64,000 nt of DNA from Methylobacillus sp. (GCA_018607835.1 JABBAS010000031.1:53534-117533); one strand, 5' to 3'. Numbered from the stretch's first letter, positions 2,951 through 39,473 are shown. Notes: generated from the sequence alone by a model not told the origin. Made by a program: numbers and translations.

Positions 2951-3757
2951 CTACATGAGCGAAAAATCGCGGTCAAATTTAGTGAGGTGCTGGCCGCCAT
3001 CAACCAGCAAGGTGGTGCCTGTTAGCGAGTGGTTCTCTAGCGCAAAGGCCACCGTTGCCACGACATCTTCAGGGGTGCTTGATTTGCCGAGTGGCGATAG
3101 GCGGTGGCGTTCTTGAAACGTGTCATCGTTTAGAAGGTGGCTGGTGAGGGTCAGGCCAGGTGCCACGCCAACGACGCGAACGCGTGGCGCGAAGGCTTGC
3201 GCGAGCATGGTGTTCGCGGTTTCAAGTGCAGCTTTCGAGAGCGTGTAGCTGAAAAAATCGGGATTCATATTCCACAATTTTTGATCTAATAAATTTACGA
3301 CCACGCCGCAGCCTTGTGCCGCCTCGAGGTGCTTGAACAACTGCTGTGCCAAACGGACAGGCGCAAGGGTGTTGGTTTGCCAATGCGCGGCGAACAGAGG
3401 GCTATCGACGGTGTGGGCATCGTCTTGCTCAAACAGTGCCGCACTATTGATGACCGCGCCTAAGCCCCCGAAGGTCTGGATCACCTCGGCGATGATGGCG
3501 TCGCACGCATTGGTATGGGCCAAATCGCCGCCGACCATCATGTGTGCCACTTGGGGCCCCGCTTGTTGGCAGGCTGCAAGGGTTTCTGCGGCGGCCTGTT
3601 CAGAGTGTCGGTAATGCACAGCGACCTGCCAACCGTTCTTGGCAAGATGCAGCGCAATGTGCCGACCTAGCCGCGTCCCAGCGCCCGTCACAAGTACGGA
3701 TCGCGGCATGCGCGTGCCGTCGAATGCCCCTAGCGGTGGGTGGGTGTCGGTGGTCAT
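2951..3757 (-). CDS. SDR oxidoreductase, pteridine reductase/FolM-like
   Basis: TGAGTRLGRHIA (TGX3RXG), YTLSK (YxxxK); adjacent to folB. Confidence 0.8.
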   Translation of the reverse strand: MTTDTHPPLGAFDGTRMPRSVLVTGAGTRLGRHIALHLAKNGWQVAVHYRHSEQAAAETLAACQQAGPQVAHMMVGGDLAHTNACDAIIAEVIQTFGGLGAVINSAALFEQDDAHTVDSPLFAAHWQTNTLAPVRLAQQLFKHLEAAQGCGVVVNLLDQKLWNMNPDFFSYTLSKAALETANTMLAQAFAPRVRVVGVAPGLTLTSHLLNDDTFQERHRLSPLGKSSTPEDVVATVAFALENHSLTGTTLLVDGGQHLTKFDRDFSLM

Positions 3758-3813
3758 GGGCTTTTAGCGTCAATCAATAGGAAGGGGGTTGGCAGATCAG
3801 CGACAATGGCGTT

Positions 3814-5049
3814 TTGACTGTCTTTGTAGCGCCCGCAAACACCTTGGATATGAAACCCTCAAGTGTACCGACTCCTGCTGACGCGGCGGCGATACCACCC
3901 GAAATGCGGGCCCACTTGGCACGGGTGTTTGCCAAATCCGACGCTTGGCTGCCTTTTGATCAATTTATGGCCGAGGCCCTTTACGCGCCAGGCTTGGGCT
4001 ATTACGCCAACGCGTTGCCCAAACTGGGTCGTATGCCCAGCGATGGCAGTGACTTTGTGACAGCCCCCGAGTTGAGCACTGTGTTTGGGCGCACGCTTGC
4101 TAAGCAGGTAGACCAAGCCTTGCGCCTCTGTGAAGTGGACACCGTGTGGGAGTTTGGCGGCGGAACGGGTGCCTTGGCTGAGACGCTGATCACCACGTTG
4201 CTGGCCACACCAGACGCGCGACTGAAGCGTTACGTCATTGTGGAGCTCTCCAGCGAACTGCGCGCCAGACAGCAAGACCGCTTAGCACCGTTGATGACGC
4301 AGTTGGATATCCAGTGGGCGACGGCGTGGCCAGAGACATTGGACGCGGTGGTTGTGGGCAACGAGGTGCTAGATGCCATGCCCGTGCGCTTGCTTGCAAG
4401 AACCGATGGGCAGTGGGCGGAGCGTGGGGTCGCCATGGTGCCGCCTGATGACGCCCTTGCCGAAGGCCAGGCTCTAGATCATCAGGCTTGGCAATTAGCG
4501 TGGTCTGACCGTCCCAGCGACCTGCAGCCGCCCATCGCCGTTGCAGGGACACACGACTATATTTTCGAGTGGCATCAGCAAGCGCAGGCTTGGGTGGGGC
4601 AGTTGGCGCAACGGCTGACAACAGGGTGTGTCTTGCTAATTGATTATGGTTTTAGCGAGGCGGAGTACTACCACCCACAGCGCCATATGGGCACATTGAT
4701 GTGTCATCAGGGCCACCGATCCGATACCGACCCGTTGTCAGCGGTGGGACTCAAAGACCTCACGGTTCACGTCGACTTCACCGCGGTTGCCCTGGCGGCG
4801 CAGGCGCATGGTCTGGACTTGTTGGGTTACACCAGCCAAGGCCGATTTTTAATTAACTGCGGCTTTGTAGAGGTGTTGCCAACGGTGACAGACGCAGAGC
4901 AGGTCCAAGCGCTCAAGCTCATCCACGAACACGAAATGGGTGAGTTGTTCAAGGTCATGGTGCTCTGCGCACAAACGCATACGGCGGCGGTCAACAATGC
5001 AGGTGGTTTTATCGGCTTCACCGCTTTTGACCGTTGTCACAGTTTATGA
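3814..5049 (+). CDS. Class I SAM-dependent methyltransferase, MidA/NDUFAF7 family (start may be 3850)
   Basis: FMAEALYAPGLGYYANALPKLG, DFVTAPELSTVFGRTLA, EFGGGTGALAE, RGRFLINCG-like tail. Confidence 0.88.
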   Translation: MTVFVAPANTLDMKPSSVPTPADAAAIPPEMRAHLARVFAKSDAWLPFDQFMAEALYAPGLGYYANALPKLGRMPSDGSDFVTAPELSTVFGRTLAKQVDQALRLCEVDTVWEFGGGTGALAETLITTLLATPDARLKRYVIVELSSELRARQQDRLAPLMTQLDIQWATAWPETLDAVVVGNEVLDAMPVRLLARTDGQWAERGVAMVPPDDALAEGQALDHQAWQLAWSDRPSDLQPPIAVAGTHDYIFEWHQQAQAWVGQLAQRLTTGCVLLIDYGFSEAEYYHPQRHMGTLMCHQGHRSDTDPLSAVGLKDLTVHVDFTAVALAAQAHGLDLLGYTSQGRFLINCGFVEVLPTVTDAEQVQALKLIHEHEMGELFKVMVLCAQTHTAAVNNAGGFIGFTAFDRCHSL

Positions 5050-28871: not shown

Positions 28872-29205
28872 GACCGATGCTGACTATCTAAACGCCGCCG
28901 AAAAAGCGCTGAGTGCGCTTGAGCTGGCATGTGACCGAATAAATGATGATACCGATGCGGACATCGATAACCAGCGCGTCGGGGGCATGATCACGATCTC
29001 GTTTGCGAACAATAGCCAATTGATCGTTAATTTACAAAAGCCACTGCATGAAATTTGGCTGGCGGCCAAGGCGGGTGGCTTCCATTACAAACTAGTGGAC
29101 GGTCAATGGCGAGATACCAAACAAGGCAGTGAGTTCTTTGCAGACGTCTCTCAGTACGCAACCCAACAATCGGGTGTTCCCCTGCATTTCACAGCCCAGG
29201 GTTAA
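28870..29205 (+). CDS. cyaY: Iron donor protein CyaY (frataxin homologue)
   Basis: DNQRVGGMITISFANNSQLIVNLQKPLHEIWLAAKAGGFHY. Confidence 0.94.
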   Translation: MTDADYLNAAEKALSALELACDRINDDTDADIDNQRVGGMITISFANNSQLIVNLQKPLHEIWLAAKAGGFHYKLVDGQWRDTKQGSEFFADVSQYATQQSGVPLHFTAQG

Positions 29206-31637
29206 TTTCGGAACAGATTCAAAATGTTGCTGCGTTCGTTTGCACGTGGAGAGTCAACCTCATCGCCGCGCTTCTCGGCCCCCCCGCCTTCAATGCCTTG
29301 ATTCATTCCTAGGCTGCGTATGCTTCTCGTGGGTCCCATTTCGCTGTAATACCAGTCCCCGCCCGATGAGAAAATACCGTTTGGCACCAAGGGGTTTTGG
29401 ATAGGCACGCCGTCCAACGCGACGCGCATGTAATCAATCCAGATGGGGAGGCTTAAGCCGCCCCCAGTTTCTCGGCTTCCCAGCGGACGCGGGTTGTCGT
29501 AGCCGACCCAGACAGCGGCCGTGCGTGTCGGGTGAAAGCCAACATACCAAGCGTCTTGCGAGTCATTGGTGGTGCCCGTCTTTCCAAATAGATCGGTGCG
29601 CTTCAGTTCTCTTTGTGAGCGCGCGCCCGTTCCTGAACGAGCGACTTCGTTCAGCAAGTCACTGATGATGAAGGCGTTGCGGGGAGACACGACCCGGCTG
29701 TCATCTGCCAAAACGACCTCTGGTGCCTGATAAACCACTTCGCCTTGCTGATCTTTGATTGACGTGATCAGGCGGGGTGGCAGCAAGTGGCCCCCGTTGG
29801 CGAAAACGCTATAACCGACGGCCATTTGCATGGGGTTGACGCTGCCTGCGCCAAGCGCCATCGTGAGATAGGGAGGGTGCTTGCTGGCATCGAAGCCAAA
29901 CCGGGTAATCCATTTTTGGGCGCTAATGGTGCCGACCACCTGTAGCACGCGAATGGAGACCATATTTTTCGACAAAGCGATCGCACGCCGAATGGTTAGT
30001 GCACCGTCAAATTTTTCATCGTAGTTTTGTGGTTCCCATGGCTCACCACCCGTTTCTGCCGCGGTGAAGAACAGCGGTGCATCATTAACGATGGTACTTG
30101 GCGTGATCCCTTTTTCGATAGCGGCGGAATAAATGAACGGTTTAAAGCTTGATCCTGGTTGGCGCAATGATTGCGTGACATGGTTGAATTTGCTCTTACT
30201 AAAATCGAATCCACCGACCAAGGTTTTGATATCTCCGGTGCGGGGATCCAAGCTAACGAGTCCGCCCTCGACTTCAGGTGTTTGGGTGATTGACCAATTT
30301 TCCCCATCACTGTCTTGCACAATACGGACGACGGATCCCCGGCGAATTTTTATTTTGGGTTGCGCCTTGGCTTGTAAACCTGACTGAACAGGCCTGAGGC
30401 CGTTACCTTTGATTGTGATTTCTTCGCCGTCCGCGCGGATCACCGTCACGCTTTTACTACTTGCCTTTAAAACCACTGCGGCCAACAAGTTGCCGTTGTC
30501 TGCCACTTCGCTTAATGCGTCATCTATGGCATCGGTTCGCTCTTCGGCATCTTTGGGTAAGTCAATATACTGTTCAGGACCGCGGTATTGCTGGCGTGAC
30601 TCGTAGTCGATTAAGCCCCGGCGGAGCGCTTGATAGCCCGCGATTTGCTCTTTCGACTGAATGGTTGTAAACACATTCAAACCGCGCGTATATGCCGCAA
30701 CCCCATACTGATCCACGACGGCTTGTCGCACCATTTCAGCTGCAAACTCAGCATGAACAGAGGTTCTTTTAACGGAGCCCTTGATACCCAAAGGCGCTGA
30801 TTTGGCGTTGCTCGCCTCTGTCGCTGTAATGAACCCCAGTGCCTCCATGCGATTGAGTACGTAATGTTGACGCAGTTTCGCGCGCTTTGGGTTGCGCACG
30901 GGGTTGTAGGCGGAGGGTGCTTTAGGTAGGCCGGCTAGCATGGCTGCTTCGGCCAGTGAAATGTCGCGTAGCGGTTTATTGAAGTAGGTTTGTGATGCGG
31001 CACCAAAGCCATAGGCGCGTCGACCGAGGTAAATTTGGTTGATGTAAATTTGCAAAATCTGTTCTTTTGAGAGTTCGTACTCCAGCTTGAACGTCATCAA
31101 AACTTCATAAATTTTTCGCGTGTAGGTCTTTTCTGCGGTCAGATAGACGTTGCGTGCTACCTGCATGCTGATGGTGGATGCGCCTTGACTTTTCGAACGC
31201 CCTAGGTTGGCTAAAACGGCACGCACCATACCCTTGTAGTCCACCCCGTTGTGTTGGAAAAAATTAGCATCTTCAGCCGCCAAAATGGCGTTGGTCAAGA
31301 CGGGGGGTACCTCATTAAAAGGTATGTATTGCCGCCTCTCCTCGCCAAACTCAGCCATCAGGACCTTGTCCGCTGAGTACACCCTCAAGGGTAATTTAGG
31401 CCGGTAGTTGGCGAGTTCGCCGACGCTGGGCAGGTTGGGGAAAGCAACCGCTAGAACGAAGGCGATACCCAAGGCTGCGGCCACTCCCCCGGCGGCGGCC
31501 AGACCAAACAGCCACGCCAGGCCCTTAAAGAGAATGCCAAACGCCGTCCCCTCAGCAGCAACGCCTGAACGCTTGCCGCCAGCGGGCGCGCCTTTGTAAG
31601 GCTTCTTAGGGGTGTCTGGGCCAGTGTTTTTGGACAT
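29202..31637 (-). CDS. mrcA: Penicillin-binding protein 1A
   Basis: Transglycosylase EDANFFQHNGVDYKGMVRA, QGASTISMQVARN, transpeptidase RQPGSSFKPFIYSAAIEKG, KTGTTNDSQDAWYVGF. Confidence 0.95.
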   Translation of the reverse strand: MSKNTGPDTPKKPYKGAPAGGKRSGVAAEGTAFGILFKGLAWLFGLAAAGGVAAALGIAFVLAVAFPNLPSVGELANYRPKLPLRVYSADKVLMAEFGEERRQYIPFNEVPPVLTNAILAAEDANFFQHNGVDYKGMVRAVLANLGRSKSQGASTISMQVARNVYLTAEKTYTRKIYEVLMTFKLEYELSKEQILQIYINQIYLGRRAYGFGAASQTYFNKPLRDISLAEAAMLAGLPKAPSAYNPVRNPKRAKLRQHYVLNRMEALGFITATEASNAKSAPLGIKGSVKRTSVHAEFAAEMVRQAVVDQYGVAAYTRGLNVFTTIQSKEQIAGYQALRRGLIDYESRQQYRGPEQYIDLPKDAEERTDAIDDALSEVADNGNLLAAVVLKASSKSVTVIRADGEEITIKGNGLRPVQSGLQAKAQPKIKIRRGSVVRIVQDSDGENWSITQTPEVEGGLVSLDPRTGDIKTLVGGFDFSKSKFNHVTQSLRQPGSSFKPFIYSAAIEKGITPSTIVNDAPLFFTAAETGGEPWEPQNYDEKFDGALTIRRAIALSKNMVSIRVLQVVGTISAQKWITRFGFDASKHPPYLTMALGAGSVNPMQMAVGYSVFANGGHLLPPRLITSIKDQQGEVVYQAPEVVLADDSRVVSPRNAFIISDLLNEVARSGTGARSQRELKRTDLFGKTGTTNDSQDAWYVGFHPTRTAAVWVGYDNPRPLGSRETGGGLSLPIWIDYMRVALDGVPIQNPLVPNGIFSSGGDWYYSEMGPTRSIRSLGMNQGIEGGGAEKRGDEVDSPRANERSNILNLFRN

Positions 31638-31806
31638 GTGTGGTTTCACAGTTCGATTGACCATTATAGAAACCAAGCGGGCGCGTATCGTCGTTATTTT
31701 CCGCGTCTTCTGCGTATTCACCCCTAGGTGCGTGTTGCCATTGTGGGCGCCCGCTGCCCGCCCTAGGCTAAGGGTGTGTTTGGTTGTGTTGGTGAGGGGG
31801 TCGGCT

Positions 31807-32496
31807 ATGTCAGATGGCGAACGCGCGGTGGCGGCATCCCCGCTTGTGCGGGGTGTGTCGCGCGCTCGGGCGCACCAATGGCGCGTGGCCGTGGATGTCG
31901 ATGCGTCTCGTTATGCCGGGGTTGTCCGCGGAGACGACGTCTCAGGTTGCTTGCGCCCCCTTGTGACACCGGAATCAGTGCGTCGACCGAGGCGTCAAGG
32001 GGCGTTCCAGCTGCGCCGCCGGACCTCGGTTGCGGTGTGCATCTCGGCAACGGCGATGCATCAACAGTTGTTTGATTTACCGGCTTGGCTAACCCCATTA
32101 CAAGCATGGGCAGAGGTACAGTTGGTAGCGGCGCGCAGCTGCACGCCGGCTCAGGACTGGTGGTTTGATGCGCATCCCATACGGTCGCGCGGCGAGGCGG
32201 TGGAGTGGGCGCTTTACAGCATGCCGGTTATCGCCATCGCGCAACGGTGGGATGCACTCCAAGAACTGCGGCCCGTCCGCCCGGTGGCCGAGCCGCCGCG
32301 CACTTGGGGTAGCCGGTTTAAGCCGTTAAACCCCATTGGCCTTGCGGGTTGGTCATTGGCCGCTGTGGTCCCCTTGACAGGGCGAGGCCCTGACGACCGT
32401 GACGACCTTGAGCGGCCGACCTTGCACGCCTTGATGGCGGTTGCGCGCTGGGGTGAGAGCCAACGTCGAGGAGGCCCTTGGTGGCTACGAACCTAG
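31807..32496 (+). CDS. Short, divergent PilM-like type IV pilus/DNA-uptake protein (assigned mainly by position)
   Basis: First gene of the cluster divergent from PBP1A and upstream of PilN/O/P/Q-like genes; weak sequence recognition. Confidence 0.5.
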   Translation: MSDGERAVAASPLVRGVSRARAHQWRVAVDVDASRYAGVVRGDDVSGCLRPLVTPESVRRPRRQGAFQLRRRTSVAVCISATAMHQQLFDLPAWLTPLQAWAEVQLVAARSCTPAQDWWFDAHPIRSRGEAVEWALYSMPVIAIAQRWDALQELRPVRPVAEPPRTWGSRFKPLNPIGLAGWSLAAVVPLTGRGPDDRDDLERPTLHALMAVARWGESQRRGGPWWLRT

Positions 32497-33071
32497 TGCC
32501 TGACGGCTTCATTGCGGTCAACCTCCTGCCTTACCGGACGGTTGCCTTGCGTCGGTATCGCCGAGAGTTCTGGCTGCTGCTTGGCGCCATGGTGTTTCTT
32601 GTGTTCTCGGTTGTCGTGCTGGCCGTGTCGGATTGGCAGCGTACGCGTGAGCACTACGAGCTGTATCGTGCGCAGTTGGCGCGAGTAGATGAAGCGCTCG
32701 CCCAAGCCCAGGCGGAGCAGATAGCGGTCACGCGTGCGCTGAAAAGCGTTGCCAGCGTGCGTGCACAAGATCTTCTGGCGCAGTCGCGGACCGAGTGGCA
32801 GCTAGCCGTCGTCGCCCACACATTGCATAGCGTCCCAAAGGGCATTCGTGTGTTGGGCTTCCAGGCCGATGGTGGTCACGTTGTGATCAATGGCTCAGCA
32901 CAGCGTTTGTCAGATCTGCTCGTATTTCACGCCATATTGGTAACGTATTGGCGCCCGCGTGCCAGCGTGCGTATAGCGCCAGCGGGCCCCATTCGCAAAG
33001 CGGGTCTGGGACGGTGTTGCGACTTCGTTATGCACGTGCGTCTAACGCCCCCATCGGCGGTTACACCATGA
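32481..33071 (+). CDS. pilN: PilN-like inner membrane protein
   Basis: AVNLLPYRTVALRRYRREFWLLLGAMVFLVFSVVVLAV, coiled coil, position. Confidence 0.78.
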   Translation: MATNLVPDGFIAVNLLPYRTVALRRYRREFWLLLGAMVFLVFSVVVLAVSDWQRTREHYELYRAQLARVDEALAQAQAEQIAVTRALKSVASVRAQDLLAQSRTEWQLAVVAHTLHSVPKGIRVLGFQADGGHVVINGSAQRLSDLLVFHAILVTYWRPRASVRIAPAGPIRKAGLGRCCDFVMHVRLTPPSAVTP

Positions 33072-34090
33072 CGCACGGTCCGCCGAACTTACCGTTTTTA
33101 TTGCGACCACGGTGGCAGCGTCTTTGTTTTGCGGCGTGTGGTGTGTTGGCTGTGGCGGTCCTGGCGTGTGCAGTGGTGTACGCCAATGGCTGGTCTGAAC
33201 ACGTGGCGCGTGAAGTCGCATTGTCTAAGCGCTCGAAAACGCTGGCGGACCGCGTCCAGAAGACGGCGCACTTGCGGGGTTTGGGCGGTGCCGCAGGTAC
33301 AGCGCGACTTGGGAGGCCCGTTGGGGCGACACAACCTGAGGACCTGCTGCCGTTGCTGCTGCGACAGCTTGCCCATGCACGCCTGCAAGCCCCGACTTGG
33401 AAGTCGGCATCAATCGGCGCACGTGATGCGTCCAAGGTGTCTGTTGTCACGCTGGGCGGGCAGGGTGACGTACGCCAGGTATTGGACCTATTGGCAGTTT
33501 TAGTGCAGCGCTTTTGGGTGCATCAATTTAAGATGACGCGGCCATCCGTCGAGACCGCGCGCAAGGGTGGTTTCGTACCGGGTCGGTTGAGTGCGTGGAA
33601 GCTGCGTGTGGACGTTGCCCGCTCGCGGGGCGGGCCCCAAGCCGAGTCGTCGCAGCGCTGGCAGGTAACCAGTGTCGGCGCTAAGGCACTGGGCGCTAAG
33701 GCACTCGGCGCCGTTCCTAGTCCTTTGCTGGCGGCAGCGGTACCTGCGGTGGCAAAGCCGGAAGAGGTGGCAAACGTAGCCGATCCAGTGGGTCCTGCAA
33801 ACGCGGCGGTTCAGACGAGACTGCCCGTGCCGTTGAATCAGTTATTTTGGGCGGGTTCTGTTGAATCGCGTGAGCGGTCGGTGGCCATTGTGCGCGCTGC
33901 GGGGCGTCTTTATCGCGTCGCAGTTGGCGATCGTATTGGACTAATCGGTGCGCTTGTGGTGGCCATTAAGCCAACCGCCGTGATGGGTTTGCATGGCCCA
34001 TTACTCATACGTATGCCGAACGCACAGCCTGGGAGAGAAGGTAGGCCAACCGGCCATACGAGCCAAAGCCACAAACGGGGGGCGCCGTGA
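33068..34090 (+). CDS. PilO-like protein apparently fused to a PilP-like C-terminal domain
   Basis: N-terminal TM and coiled coil; C-terminal PLNQLFWAGSVESRERSVAIVRAAGRLYRVAVGDRIGLIGALVVAIKPTAVMGLHGPLLIRM resembles PilP; no separate pilP. Confidence 0.65.
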   Translation: MTHGPPNLPFLLRPRWQRLCFAACGVLAVAVLACAVVYANGWSEHVAREVALSKRSKTLADRVQKTAHLRGLGGAAGTARLGRPVGATQPEDLLPLLLRQLAHARLQAPTWKSASIGARDASKVSVVTLGGQGDVRQVLDLLAVLVQRFWVHQFKMTRPSVETARKGGFVPGRLSAWKLRVDVARSRGGPQAESSQRWQVTSVGAKALGAKALGAVPSPLLAAAVPAVAKPEEVANVADPVGPANAAVQTRLPVPLNQLFWAGSVESRERSVAIVRAAGRLYRVAVGDRIGLIGALVVAIKPTAVMGLHGPLLIRMPNAQPGREGRPTGHTSQSHKRGAP

Positions 34091-35790
34091 GCCAGCAGAC
34101 AGGCTCAGGAATGGGTGGTGTGGCGGTAGGCGTCTTGTGCGCCGTGATGGCATTGTTAGCGTCGGGGTGTACGGCTTTGCCTGAGGCTGCCCCCGTGACC
34201 ACCGCCATCGTAGACCCCACGTTGCTGGTTGTGGCCGAGGAGGCGCGCGCGGCAGGCGCGTTGTCTGCCGGGCTACTCGCTTCGCCGGTGGTGGCCAGGG
34301 TCTCACCGCCGCCCGCGTCGGAAAAGAGGCCGCCGTTAGTGCCCTTAAAACAAGCAGAAAGTGCAGCAGCGGGTGCGGGTGCGGGTGCAGGCGGGGGTGC
34401 GGATGTAGGTGACGTGTGGGTTGGGTATGGTGGGCGTGTGCCTGCTTGGTCTGACCGCGTGTATCCGCTACCCAACGCACGCGCATCGCCTCTTCTACGG
34501 CTCACTTTTGACCAAGTCGACGCGCAGGTCGCGCTCCAGGCAATTGCCATGGTGGCTGAGCGCAACATCGTCATCGCCCACGGGGTCACAGGTAAGGTGT
34601 CGCTGAGCCTCCATGATGTGCCTTGGTATGTTGCCATGACCGGTGTCTTGCGTGTCAGTGGGTTACTGGTTCAGCAACAAGCCGGTATTTTGTGGGTGGC
34701 TGCCTTGGATGAGGTGGCTAGCCTTGAGCTAGAGGCAAAGCGACGCCGAGATAACGTACGCTTGGCTGCACCGCTGGAGACGCGTATCTTTGCGTTGAAT
34801 TACGCGCGCGCCAAGGATGTAGCGGCCTACCTGCAAGGAGAGGGGAACAAGCGAACGGCAAAGGAGCCGCTCGTGCAGGACGTTGCCGCGCAGTCGGAGG
34901 CAAGTGGGTCCGTGCGGGTGACACCACGCCTCGCCGGTGGCACCAATCAGGCTGGGCTTGGGCTGAGCGGTCAGGGTGGTTTGGGTGGTTTGTTATCCAG
35001 CAGGGGTGTCGTTATTGCAGAGACCCGAACCAACCAGTTGTTCGTCAGTGACAAGGTGCCGCGTATGGCGAGGATTGCGGCATTTATTCGGCTCTTAGAT
35101 AAGCCCGTTCGGCAGGTCTTAATTCAGGCGCGGATCGTGGAGGCAGATGATGGATTTAGCCAGTCGCTGGGGGTGCGGTTAAGTCGGCACGCCGAACCCA
35201 TTGTCCAACTCCCAGCCGTTGGCCTAGGTGGTCGCGAACCTGCCGTGCTTGCATTGTCACTTTTTCGTCCGGGAACAGACCATTTGATTGCCTTGGAACT
35301 CACGGCATTAGAGGCGACAGGCAAAGGGAAAATTGTCTCGCGTCCCACCATCGTCACCGCCAACCTCGTGAAGGCGCTGATTGAACAAGGTACGGAATAC
35401 CCTTACCAATCCATCAACGCCAACGGGAGCGCCTCTGTCCAATTTAGAAAGGCGACGTTGCGGCTAGAGGTTACGCCGCATGTGACGCCCAACGGACACG
35501 TGATGTTGGACGTCGACATTCACAAAGACAGTCGTGGAGAAACGACAGCGCAGGGTGTCGCCATAAACACCAAACATGTGCAAACACAGGTTTTGGTGGA
35601 AAACACAGGGACGGTGGTGATCGGCGGTATATTTGAGCGTTACGATAGGAACGAAGAAACAAAAGTGCCTTTTCTCGGCGATTTGCCGGGTATAGGCTAT
35701 TTGTTTAAGACGCAAAGCGAGCGTGCGGATCGCTCAGAGATGCTGATTTTTCTCACGCCTTATATTTTGAAGCAGGATGGCGCGTCATAA
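34087..35790 (+). CDS. pilQ: PilQ/HofQ-type secretin with N-terminal lipobox
   Basis: FDQVDAQVALQAIAMVAERNIVIAHGVTGKVSLSLHDVPW, secretin domain VLIQARIVEADDGFSQSLGVRL, VPFLGDLPGIGYLFKTQ, MLIFLTPYIL. Confidence 0.9.
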   Translation: MSQQTGSGMGGVAVGVLCAVMALLASGCTALPEAAPVTTAIVDPTLLVVAEEARAAGALSAGLLASPVVARVSPPPASEKRPPLVPLKQAESAAAGAGAGAGGGADVGDVWVGYGGRVPAWSDRVYPLPNARASPLLRLTFDQVDAQVALQAIAMVAERNIVIAHGVTGKVSLSLHDVPWYVAMTGVLRVSGLLVQQQAGILWVAALDEVASLELEAKRRRDNVRLAAPLETRIFALNYARAKDVAAYLQGEGNKRTAKEPLVQDVAAQSEASGSVRVTPRLAGGTNQAGLGLSGQGGLGGLLSSRGVVIAETRTNQLFVSDKVPRMARIAAFIRLLDKPVRQVLIQARIVEADDGFSQSLGVRLSRHAEPIVQLPAVGLGGREPAVLALSLFRPGTDHLIALELTALEATGKGKIVSRPTIVTANLVKALIEQGTEYPYQSINANGSASVQFRKATLRLEVTPHVTPNGHVMLDVDIHKDSRGETTAQGVAINTKHVQTQVLVENTGTVVIGGIFERYDRNEETKVPFLGDLPGIGYLFKTQSERADRSEMLIFLTPYILKQDGAS

Positions 35791-35824
35791 GCGCCGACCT
35801 GTACTTAGCCGACCGAACTACACC

Positions 35825-36403
35825 ATGTCTGTCATCGCAATTGTTGGAATGCCGGGGTCTGGCAAGACGACGGTGGGGCGTCACCTGGCGCGACGCCTAG
35901 GGCGGCAGTTTGTCGACAGCGATCACGAGTTGGAGCGCGAACTGGGCTGCACAGTAAAGCAGTACTTCGAGGTGCATGGCGAGGCAAGTTTTAGAGATGC
36001 CGAGTCCGCCGTACTGGCACGCTTATGCGTGGATGCTGACAAAGGGGAAAAGGTCTCCGGCATCGTTTTGGCAACAGGCGGTGGTGCGGTTCTTAGGCCT
36101 GAAAACCGAGCTTGTTTGCGTGCGCAGGCGTGGGTGGTTTACCTCCGGTCGTCACCCGTCGAATTGGCCAAACGCCTGCGTTACGATAAAACACGTCCCT
36201 TGCTACAAGGGGGGCATGCGGGTGAGCGCTTGCAAAACTTGTTTGAACAGCGCGACCACTTGTATCAAGAAGCGGCCCATTTTTCGGTCGATACCGGGCG
36301 CCCAAGCGTCCATATGCTGGTTAACACCATTGCCATGCAGCACGAGATGCGCGATCTGGCGACGGTGACACCCGCAACCCAACGTTCCCAAAGCCCACCA
36401 TGA
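35825..36403 (+). CDS. aroK: Shikimate kinase
   Basis: [43 protein letters not shown]. Confidence 0.96.
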
Positions 36404-37560: not shown

Positions 37561-38773
37561 TGTGGTTCAACACCCCTTGGGCGCGCTGGCGTCCTACGCA
37601 AGCGACCCGTCAACGAGCCAAGGCCGCCTCCATCCGCAAGCGGCCGCGCTGACACGGAATGAGTTCCAGCGAGATCGGGACCGCGTCATACACTCCACGG
37701 CATTTCGCCGTCTGGTATACAAAACACAGGTTTTCCTGAACCATGAGGGCGACTTGTTTCGCACGCGACTGACGCACTCTCTGGAGGTGGCGCAGATAGG
37801 GCGAAGCATTGCCCGTAATTTAGGGCTGCATGAGGATTTAGTGGAGGCCGTGGCGCTTGCGCATGACCTTGGGCACACGCCATTTGGCCACGCTGGCCAG
37901 GACGCGTTGAATGAAGCCATGCGTCAACATGTAAGCGATCATGCGGACACGCTGGTGGATGGATTGGGGTTTGAGCACAACCTGCAGAGCCTGCGGGTGG
38001 TCGATACCTTGGAGCGGTCTTACCCTGAGTTTGATGGCTTGAATTTAAGCTTTGAGACACGCGAAGGGGTGCTGAAGCACTGCGCATTAAGCCATGCGAG
38101 GCGGCTAGAGGCACAGCGACCTAACGATGTGGGCGCACGCTTCATCAACAAAACATCCCCATCGCTAGAGGCGCAGTTGTGTAACTTGGCCGACGAAATC
38201 GCCTACAACGCTCACGACGTTGACGATGGCGTGCGCTCGGGCCTCATTGACTTTGAGCAACTGCAGTCGGTTCCTTTGGTGCTGACGTATGCCAACGAGG
38301 CCAAGCGTGCATTCCCTCACTTGCTTGGAAGACGCTTGTTGGCCGAGACGATTCGCCGCATATTGACGGCTCAGGTATTTGATGTCACAGCGCAGACCCG
38401 CCAAAATATCCAAGATGCCGGCGTCGCGACAGTCGACGACGTGCGTGCTTTACCCGGTGATTTGGTTGGCTTTTCACCGGCCATGCGCCGTGAATCCATC
38501 GTGCTAAAACAATTCTTATTTGCCAATTTGTACCGCCACCCGCAGGTGGCGGAGATGACAGCAACAGCCAAGGGCGTGGTCACCGACTTGTTTGCGGCCT
38601 ACCTCGCAGCCCCCGACATGATGGACACCTCAGCGCCCAAGGCGAGTACGGTGCAGCGATCGGTCTCGGACTACATAGCGGGTATGACGGATCGGTTCGC
38701 CATGCGCGAGCACGCACGCATCACGGGGGAGGATGTGTTTGGTGCGGGCGCGACGTTGAGGCCGCATGGCTAG
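37550..38773 (+). CDS. dgt: Deoxyguanosinetriphosphate triphosphohydrolase
   Basis: [60 protein letters not shown] (HD motif); start near 37550 uncertain. Confidence 0.93.
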
Positions 38774-39473
38774 GTTGGCCCGTTTGACGGCGCCGGGTTT
38801 TGTGCACCACATCGTGGTTCGAGGCAACAACGGCGCAGCGGTATTCCGGGATGTATCAGACCGTGCGCACTGGGTTGACTGCTTAAGGCGTTTTAGCGCG
38901 TCCAATCAGGTGACTGTCCATGCCTATGTGCTGCTGAAAGATGAGGTTCAGCTACTGGTTACGCCTGAGAGCACGGGAAGTGTGTCGCGGATGATGCAAG
39001 CGATCGGCCGGCAATACGTCACGACGTTCAATCGCAAATATCGCCAAACAGGTACCTTATGGGAGGGCCGCTACCGCTGTAGCCTGATTCAGGCCGATGC
39101 GTATTTGCTGCCCTGCATGGTCTACATGGACCTTGCCCCCGTGCGTGCGGGGGAGGTGGCTGAGGCGAGCGCCCATTCGTGGGGAAGCTATGCCCATTAC
39201 GTGGGCGTAACGCAAGAGCCTTGGTTGGTCGCATCGCCGCGGGTTTGGACGTTAGGCAATACGCCGTTTGCCCGCGAGGCGGCTTACCGGGATCGCGTCG
39301 TGGCCGGCTTAAGTGCTGCGCTGGTGCAGACGATTCGCGACCACACGCACAACGGCTGGGCCTTGGGCGATGAGGCGTTTCTAACAGCGTTGCAAGGCAT
39401 CGTTTCTCGCCGCGTTAGCAAGGGGAAAGCGGGCCGTCCCAACAAGTCAAACCCTTTATCTGACCCCAATTAA
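38766..39473 (+). CDS. RAYT (REP-associated tyrosine transposase)-like protein with degenerate HUH motif
   Basis: PGFVHHIVVRGNNGAAVFRDVSDR, HAYVLLKDEVQLLVTP, MMQAIGRQYVTTFNRKYRQTGTLWEGRYRCSLI, YMDLAPVRAGEV. Confidence 0.85.
   Translation: MARLARLTAPGFVHHIVVRGNNGAAVFRDVSDRAHWVDCLRRFSASNQVTVHAYVLLKDEVQLLVTPESTGSVSRMMQAIGRQYVTTFNRKYRQTGTLWEGRYRCSLIQADAYLLPCMVYMDLAPVRAGEVAEASAHSWGSYAHYVGVTQEPWLVASPRVWTLGNTPFAREAAYRDRVVAGLSAALVQTIRDHTHNGWALGDEAFLTALQGIVSRRVSKGKAGRPNKSNPLSDPN

Follow-up and report, generated by a model that had tools for sequence, protein, structure and literature searches.

In a Methylobacillus sp. genome (GCA_018607835.1), the site between mrcA and aroK, at which relatives of the same family carry the five type IV pilus genes pilM, pilN, pilO, pilP and pilQ, is occupied by four plus-strand genes. 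The locus (positions 31,807 to 35,790) lies in a stretch of 64,000 nucleotides (JABBAS010000031.1:53534-117533), here called the window, and raises the question whether PilO and PilP, which are separate proteins in these relatives, PilP being a lipoprotein, are made here as one polypeptide, and what this would mean for the pilus machine. An earlier note made from the sequence alone had described a re-organised type IV pilus/DNA-uptake cluster with preserved gene order, in which the third of four genes joins a PilO-like transmembrane segment and coiled coil to a C-terminal PilP-like segment through an Ala/Pro/Val-rich linker. The comparison with relatives confirmed the gene order and number, and the analyses presented below agree with the proposed composition of the third gene.

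In the standard alignment complex, PilM holds the N-terminus of PilN, PilN pairs with PilO, the unstructured arm of PilP binds PilNO and the HR domain of PilP binds the N0 domain of the secretin PilQ (PMC5285504, PMC4471445). PilO-PilP fusions were reported in "a few cases", e.g. Pseudomonas putida Q88CU9, by Korotkov et al. in 2011, who used the fusion as an argument on stoichiometry (PMC3169554); no other description was found in the literature searched. Given this publication and the recurrence of the fusion elsewhere in the family, in four further lineages or more, the novelty implied by the earlier note was not upheld, and the window gene is a diverged new example of an already known fusion. 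It has in common with Q88CU9, which was compared by its published description only, that PilO and PilP are joined in one type IV pilus polypeptide, and differs in belonging to another bacterial order. Its PilP part is further from the Pfam model than that of the other fused lineages, and its PilQ is devoid of AMIN domains. The recurrence of the fusion and its tie to AMIN-less secretins appear to be undescribed in the literature searched.

Identity of the two halves of the fused protein

The product of the third gene is a PilO-PilP fusion, i.e. one uninterrupted polypeptide with PilO first. Profiles built from four members of the genus were compared by hhalign, by which the C-terminal part matched the canonical PilP alignment (98.2%, E 4e-14) and the N-terminal part the canonical PilO alignment (95.9%, E 6e-9), while the swapped controls, in which each half was aligned to the wrong family, gave 0.1 and 0.2%. 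In a profile of 13 fused proteins, positions 219-355 matched the PilP structures 4av2, 2ivw, 2lc4 and 2y4x, and positions 65-186 the PilO structures 2rjz, 3jc8 chain O and 5uvr. With Pfam, the PilP match of the window protein (residues 255-305, 18.8 bits, E 0.0016) stayed under the cut-off of 25.6, and the PilO model (PF04350) gave no match. The PilP domain of genus mate G001 scored marginally over the Pfam cut-off, and the PilO and PilP models both exceeded their cut-offs on a single polypeptide in Cupriavidus gilardii USM5 as well as in Variovorax ginsengisoli DS1607.

The AlphaFold model, for which 41 rows were used, consists of a helix (residues 10-71), an alpha/beta domain (90-184), a disordered stretch (approximately 188-246), which is the linker that had been described as rich in Ala, Pro and Val, and a beta domain (255-314) with a predicted local distance difference test score (pLDDT) of 91-95. 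For the model as a whole, a pLDDT of 70 and a predicted template modelling score of 0.38 were obtained, in line with two domains that a linker joins flexibly, and the relative placing of the two domains in the model therefore carries no meaning. When the model was searched against the PDB with Foldseek, each of the top 13 matches was a PilO, a PilP or one of the chains O and P in the model of the piliated machine, with modest E-values (best 1.3e-3); 3jc8 chain O and 2rjz matched on the PilO side and 2ivw, 2y4y and 2lc4 on the PilP side. The N-terminal half thus has the membrane helix, coiled coil and ferredoxin-like periplasmic domain of the PilO family, and the C-terminal half the HR beta-sandwich of PilP. 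Moreover, the invariant Pro219, Gly263 and Gly287 of the fused set are spaced nearly as Pro66, Gly112 and Gly136 of PilP, and the linker residue Pro219 lies at the same distance from the domain as the PF motif in the N-terminal arm of PilP. Both domains share one frame, no lipobox cysteine is present in the linker ahead of the PilP domain, and PilP as a separate lipoprotein is thus not encoded here.

The HR domain of the type II secretion protein GspC was also found by Foldseek (rank 15; 3oss chain C, 6hcg chain e), and the fused protein resembles GspC in placing an HR domain on a transmembrane helix in one chain. However, the helix of the window protein belongs to a PilO/GspM-like domain, neither GspC nor GspM occurs as a separate protein, and PilQ takes the place of GspD as the secretin. 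The earlier note had stressed that the fusion tethers the secretin-docking domain covalently to the inner membrane. Sequence and model support this tethering, but the departure is smaller than had been implied, as PilP in its canonical form has a lipid anchor anyway and GspC holds its HR domain on a membrane helix of its own.

Conservation of the fusion in the genus

A sequencing or assembly error that erased a pilO/pilP boundary would produce the same picture, and the odd architecture is the only point that speaks for it. The window genome (2.42 Mb in 76 contigs, completeness 99.8%) holds no second PilP, and the linker keeps no lipobox that a separate PilP would have. The same fusion is present as an open, uninterrupted frame in the genus mates G001, G002 and G008, whose assemblies are independent and in one case a single contig. 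Because of this agreement an assembly frameshift was ruled out, the probability of an artefact is negligible, and the fusion is regarded as fixed in a lineage. A further genome placed in the same genus, G009, has a separate pilO, a pilP with a lipobox and a PilQ with an AMIN domain.

Distribution and repeated origin

The family was surveyed with a profile of the fused proteins, for which a full-length match without stop codon was required; weakly scoring fusions may lie beyond the matches listed. Among the matches listed, uninterrupted full-length fusions were found in at least 14 of 401 family genomes, representing at least 5 of 141 genera (g1, g24, g63, g106 and g113). The named fused loci are those of C. 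gilardii USM5 (L082), a Cupriavidus metagenome-assembled genome (MAG; L068) and V. ginsengisoli DS1607 (L127), together with those of Comamonadaceae or Burkholderiales MAGs (L128, L135 and L140). In a class-wide sample of 232 genomes, the window's own was the only uninterrupted full-length match among the matches listed. The other four full-length matches (G252, G339, G285 and G368) hold stops and were read as adjacent genes in one frame, and the idea of a fusion common across the class was therefore dropped.

In a tree of the flanking genes mrcA, aroK and aroB (53 rows), six changes between the fused and the separate state were counted, at least five of which are forced by well-supported branches. 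A single clade of all fused loci was rejected by approximately unbiased (AU) tests both on the flanking genes (p 2e-6; 46 rows) and on PilQ (p 4e-39; 46 rows), and a single origin with vertical inheritance was rejected accordingly; the AU tests were run after inspection of the tree, and the PilQ set contains long branches and a half-filled window row. Transfer of one fused cluster between conserved flanks is not supported, since the PilQ tree likewise scatters the fused rows. Counts of changes do not tell gain from loss, but as separate genes are the near-universal state, repeated gain is the simpler reading, according to which the fusion would have arisen at least five times within one bacterial family.

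Association with AMIN-less secretins

The window PilQ matched the Pfam models Secretin, Secretin_N and N0 and scored 375 bits with TIGR02515; no AMIN domain was found in it by Pfam. In the 21 fused loci (20 distinct, as L066 and L046 are the same genome), the distance from the stop of PilP to the N0 domain of PilQ is only 39-135 residues, while in the 77 separate loci the median before N0 is 280 residues and PilQ is long in 70 and short in 7. An AMIN domain was detected by Pfam in both long PilQs checked and in none of the five checked from fused lineages, the window included. The fusion thus goes with a short secretin, AMIN-less where checked, without exception in the counts. Nevertheless, the independent-pairs sign test comprised only five pairs (p 0.25), and since five pairs cannot reach significance, the link is taken as suggestive. 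A shortened PilQ is already present in unfused sisters of fused loci, fully in G194 (50 residues) and partly in G183 (175 residues), which fits a shortening of PilQ ahead of the fusion; in the unfused G009, from the genus of the window, PilQ is still long. In Pseudomonas aeruginosa, the AMIN domain binds peptidoglycan, and the localisation of PilO relies on it via PilP (PMC5285504).

In the genus of the window, PilQ carries a lipobox (GLAACQ, VAACQ or LLSACQ in the genus-mate loci L045, L046, L048 and L049), whereas the other fused lineages examined have a PilQ without one. A lipoprotein PilQ that substitutes for the pilotin PilF was considered but not adopted, as genus mates have a PilF-like protein in addition to a lipobox PilQ.

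Gene complement and layout of the locus

The coordinates of the locus are compiled in Table 1. The pilM-like product gave no Pfam or NCBIfam match and was recognised by hhalign of the genus set against PilM (62.7%, E 7e-5, profile columns 90-191 of 358); in the window species only a diverged N-terminal lobe of PilM is left. The pilN product had no Pfam match over the cut-off, and its orthologues in the genus mates matched PilN weakly. PilM and PilN form one protein in G001, G002, G008 and L128 (L045:5214-6209:-, L046 ~3186-4322:-, L049:5157-6344:-, L128:4208-5404:+), as in GspL of type II secretion; the L128 protein exceeds the Pfam cut-offs for PilM_2 and PilN. In L082 and L068, pilM was not seen in the approximately 500 bases between mrcA and pilN.

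Table 1. Features of the mrcA-aroK region in the window, with the basis of each assignment.
Feature	Position	Strand	Basis or remark
mrcA (penicillin-binding protein 1A)	29202..31721	-	conserved left flank
pilM-like gene, 229 aa, truncated, very diverged	31807..32496	+	position between mrcA and pilN; hhalign
pilN, 197 aa	32478..33071	+	position; VNLLPYR motif kept ahead of membrane helix
Fused pilO-pilP gene, 340 aa	33068..34090	+	profiles, AlphaFold model, Foldseek
PilO part: membrane helix/coiled coil (residues 10-71), ferredoxin-like domain (~90-184)	33095..33619	+	AlphaFold, Foldseek, hhalign
Ala/Pro/Val-rich disordered linker (residues 188-246)	33629..33805	+	pLDDT under 50
PilP/HR beta domain (residues 255-315)	33830..34012	+	pLDDT 91-95, Foldseek, hhalign
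pilQ secretin, 567 aa; N0, N1 and secretin domains	34087..35790	+	Pfam, TIGR02515
PilQ lipoprotein-type signal, ending in lipobox-like ALLASGC (Cys28)	34087..34170	+	sequence reading
aroK	35777..36403	+	conserved right flank; Pfam SKI, E 2e-45

Elsewhere in the window genome (G000), one ATPase of the T2SSE family was found over the cut-off, which is PilB-like and adjoins pilC-like and prepilin-peptidase-like genes. This PilB (G000:C9:134605-135744; L178:8591-9784:-) covers model positions 188-561 of 564, the first 187 being absent. The N-terminal part of PilB is the region whose counterpart in type II secretion contacts GspL, the counterpart of PilM; its loss and the truncation of PilM occur together in this genome. 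PilC matched the GspF model best, and PilD was assigned from position and sequence reading alone. The genome further encodes a major pilin and three proteins resembling minor pilins. The minor pilin cluster (L180:5349-7223, G000:C55), located between ribD and nrdR, contains only fimT-, pilV- and pilW-like genes, one of which includes a masked N run, and neither pilX nor pilY1 was seen next to them. ComEC is encoded at G000:C16:104517-105395 (E 2e-52). No PilT or PilU and no clear match to the pilotin PilF/PilW were found in the window genome.

The fused genus mates likewise have a single ATPase, and the unfused G009 has a PilT-like match. The fusion is not generally accompanied by a loss of PilT, since a match of PilT size is kept in g106, g63 and Variovorax; one g113 genome has a single ATPase. 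Downstream of the locus, an open reading frame (ORF) resembling Y1 (REP-associated tyrosine transposase) follows dgt in the window (38766-39473); L082 and L068 have similar ORFs in the corresponding place, and L127 has one nearby.

Proposed function

The domains encoded by the locus and their order, with the secretin last, are those of the canonical PilMNOP-PilQ systems of P. aeruginosa, Neisseria and Myxococcus. Of the type IVa components, PilB, PilC, PilD, PilQ and a major pilin are present, but the separate lipoprotein PilP, the full-length PilM, the AMIN-bearing PilQ and PilT/PilU of the canonical system are all replaced or missing. The description as a re-organised type IV pilus or DNA-uptake cluster therefore stands, with a reduction that goes further than had been noticed: PilM is truncated, PilQ is of the lipoprotein type and has no AMIN domain, and PilT is missing from the genome. 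In our view the product of the locus is probably the alignment complex that spans the envelope in a minimal type IV pilus machine, whose most likely use is DNA uptake.

In such a complex, the PilP arm would have become the linker running straight on from PilO, and the membrane helix of PilO would take over the role of the PilP lipid anchor. PilO, presumably paired with PilN, would itself bring the HR domain to the secretin without a lipid anchor, and the HR domain would dock on PilQ. As both are in one chain, the stoichiometry of PilO and PilP is fixed at 1:1. Motorised retraction would be absent, and with one ATPase and ComEC the best fit would be a pilus for DNA uptake as in Haemophilus, where DNA is taken up without PilT (PMC6668835). 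The suggested DNA-uptake role thus draws on ComEC and the reduced gene set. A short secretin and a short PilM are also features of the com/pil genes of Haemophilus influenzae and of hofMNOPQ of Escherichia coli; ComC/ComD and HofO/HofP, unlike the window fusion, are separate proteins.

Several observations weigh against this assignment. ComEC is found in many bacteria without known competence, the PilP domain of the window species scores below its Pfam cut-off, the sign test on the fusion and short PilQ comprised too few pairs, and PilM and PilN are so diverged that decay of the machine is conceivable. The fusion would then be one step of degeneration in a locus that no longer yields a working machine, with which the barely recognisable PilM, the shortened PilB, the missing PilT and the lack of a clear PilF would agree. 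This explanation is considered unlikely, because all reading frames are intact across four species, which share no more than 71% identity with the window in their flanking genes, the PilP domain has kept its conserved residues, PilQ retains its secretin domains, and minor pilins, pilB, pilC and comEC are still there.

Alternatively, the genes might build a non-retracting filament for secretion or adhesion of the type II kind, with PilM-PilN corresponding to GspL and the fused protein to GspM plus GspC. That PilQ is clearly a PilQ by its TIGR02515 score, that the locus occupies the conserved pilMNOPQ site and that ComEC is present makes such a filament quite improbable, even though PilM and PilN are fused in the genus mates and L128, the single ATPase is not accompanied by a retraction motor, and PilC resembles GspF.

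For the preferred minimal DNA-uptake machine, a wider scenario is put forward tentatively and with some doubt. The PilO-PilP fusion could be a convergent step in the reduction of type IV pili to non-twitching DNA-uptake machines, in which the secretin would first have lost its AMIN domains and the HR domain would then have been fixed to PilO (and PilM, in some lineages, to PilN), giving a three-part complex similar to that of type II secretion. The fixed 1:1 ratio of PilO to PilP bears on the debated stoichiometry of the inner-membrane complexes of pili and type II secretion systems. Moreover, the recurrence of the fusion beside AMIN-less secretins suggests a link between the anchoring of the secretin in the cell wall and the presence of PilP as a separate protein with a lipid anchor, and V. 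ginsengisoli is a cultured isolate in which this link could be examined.

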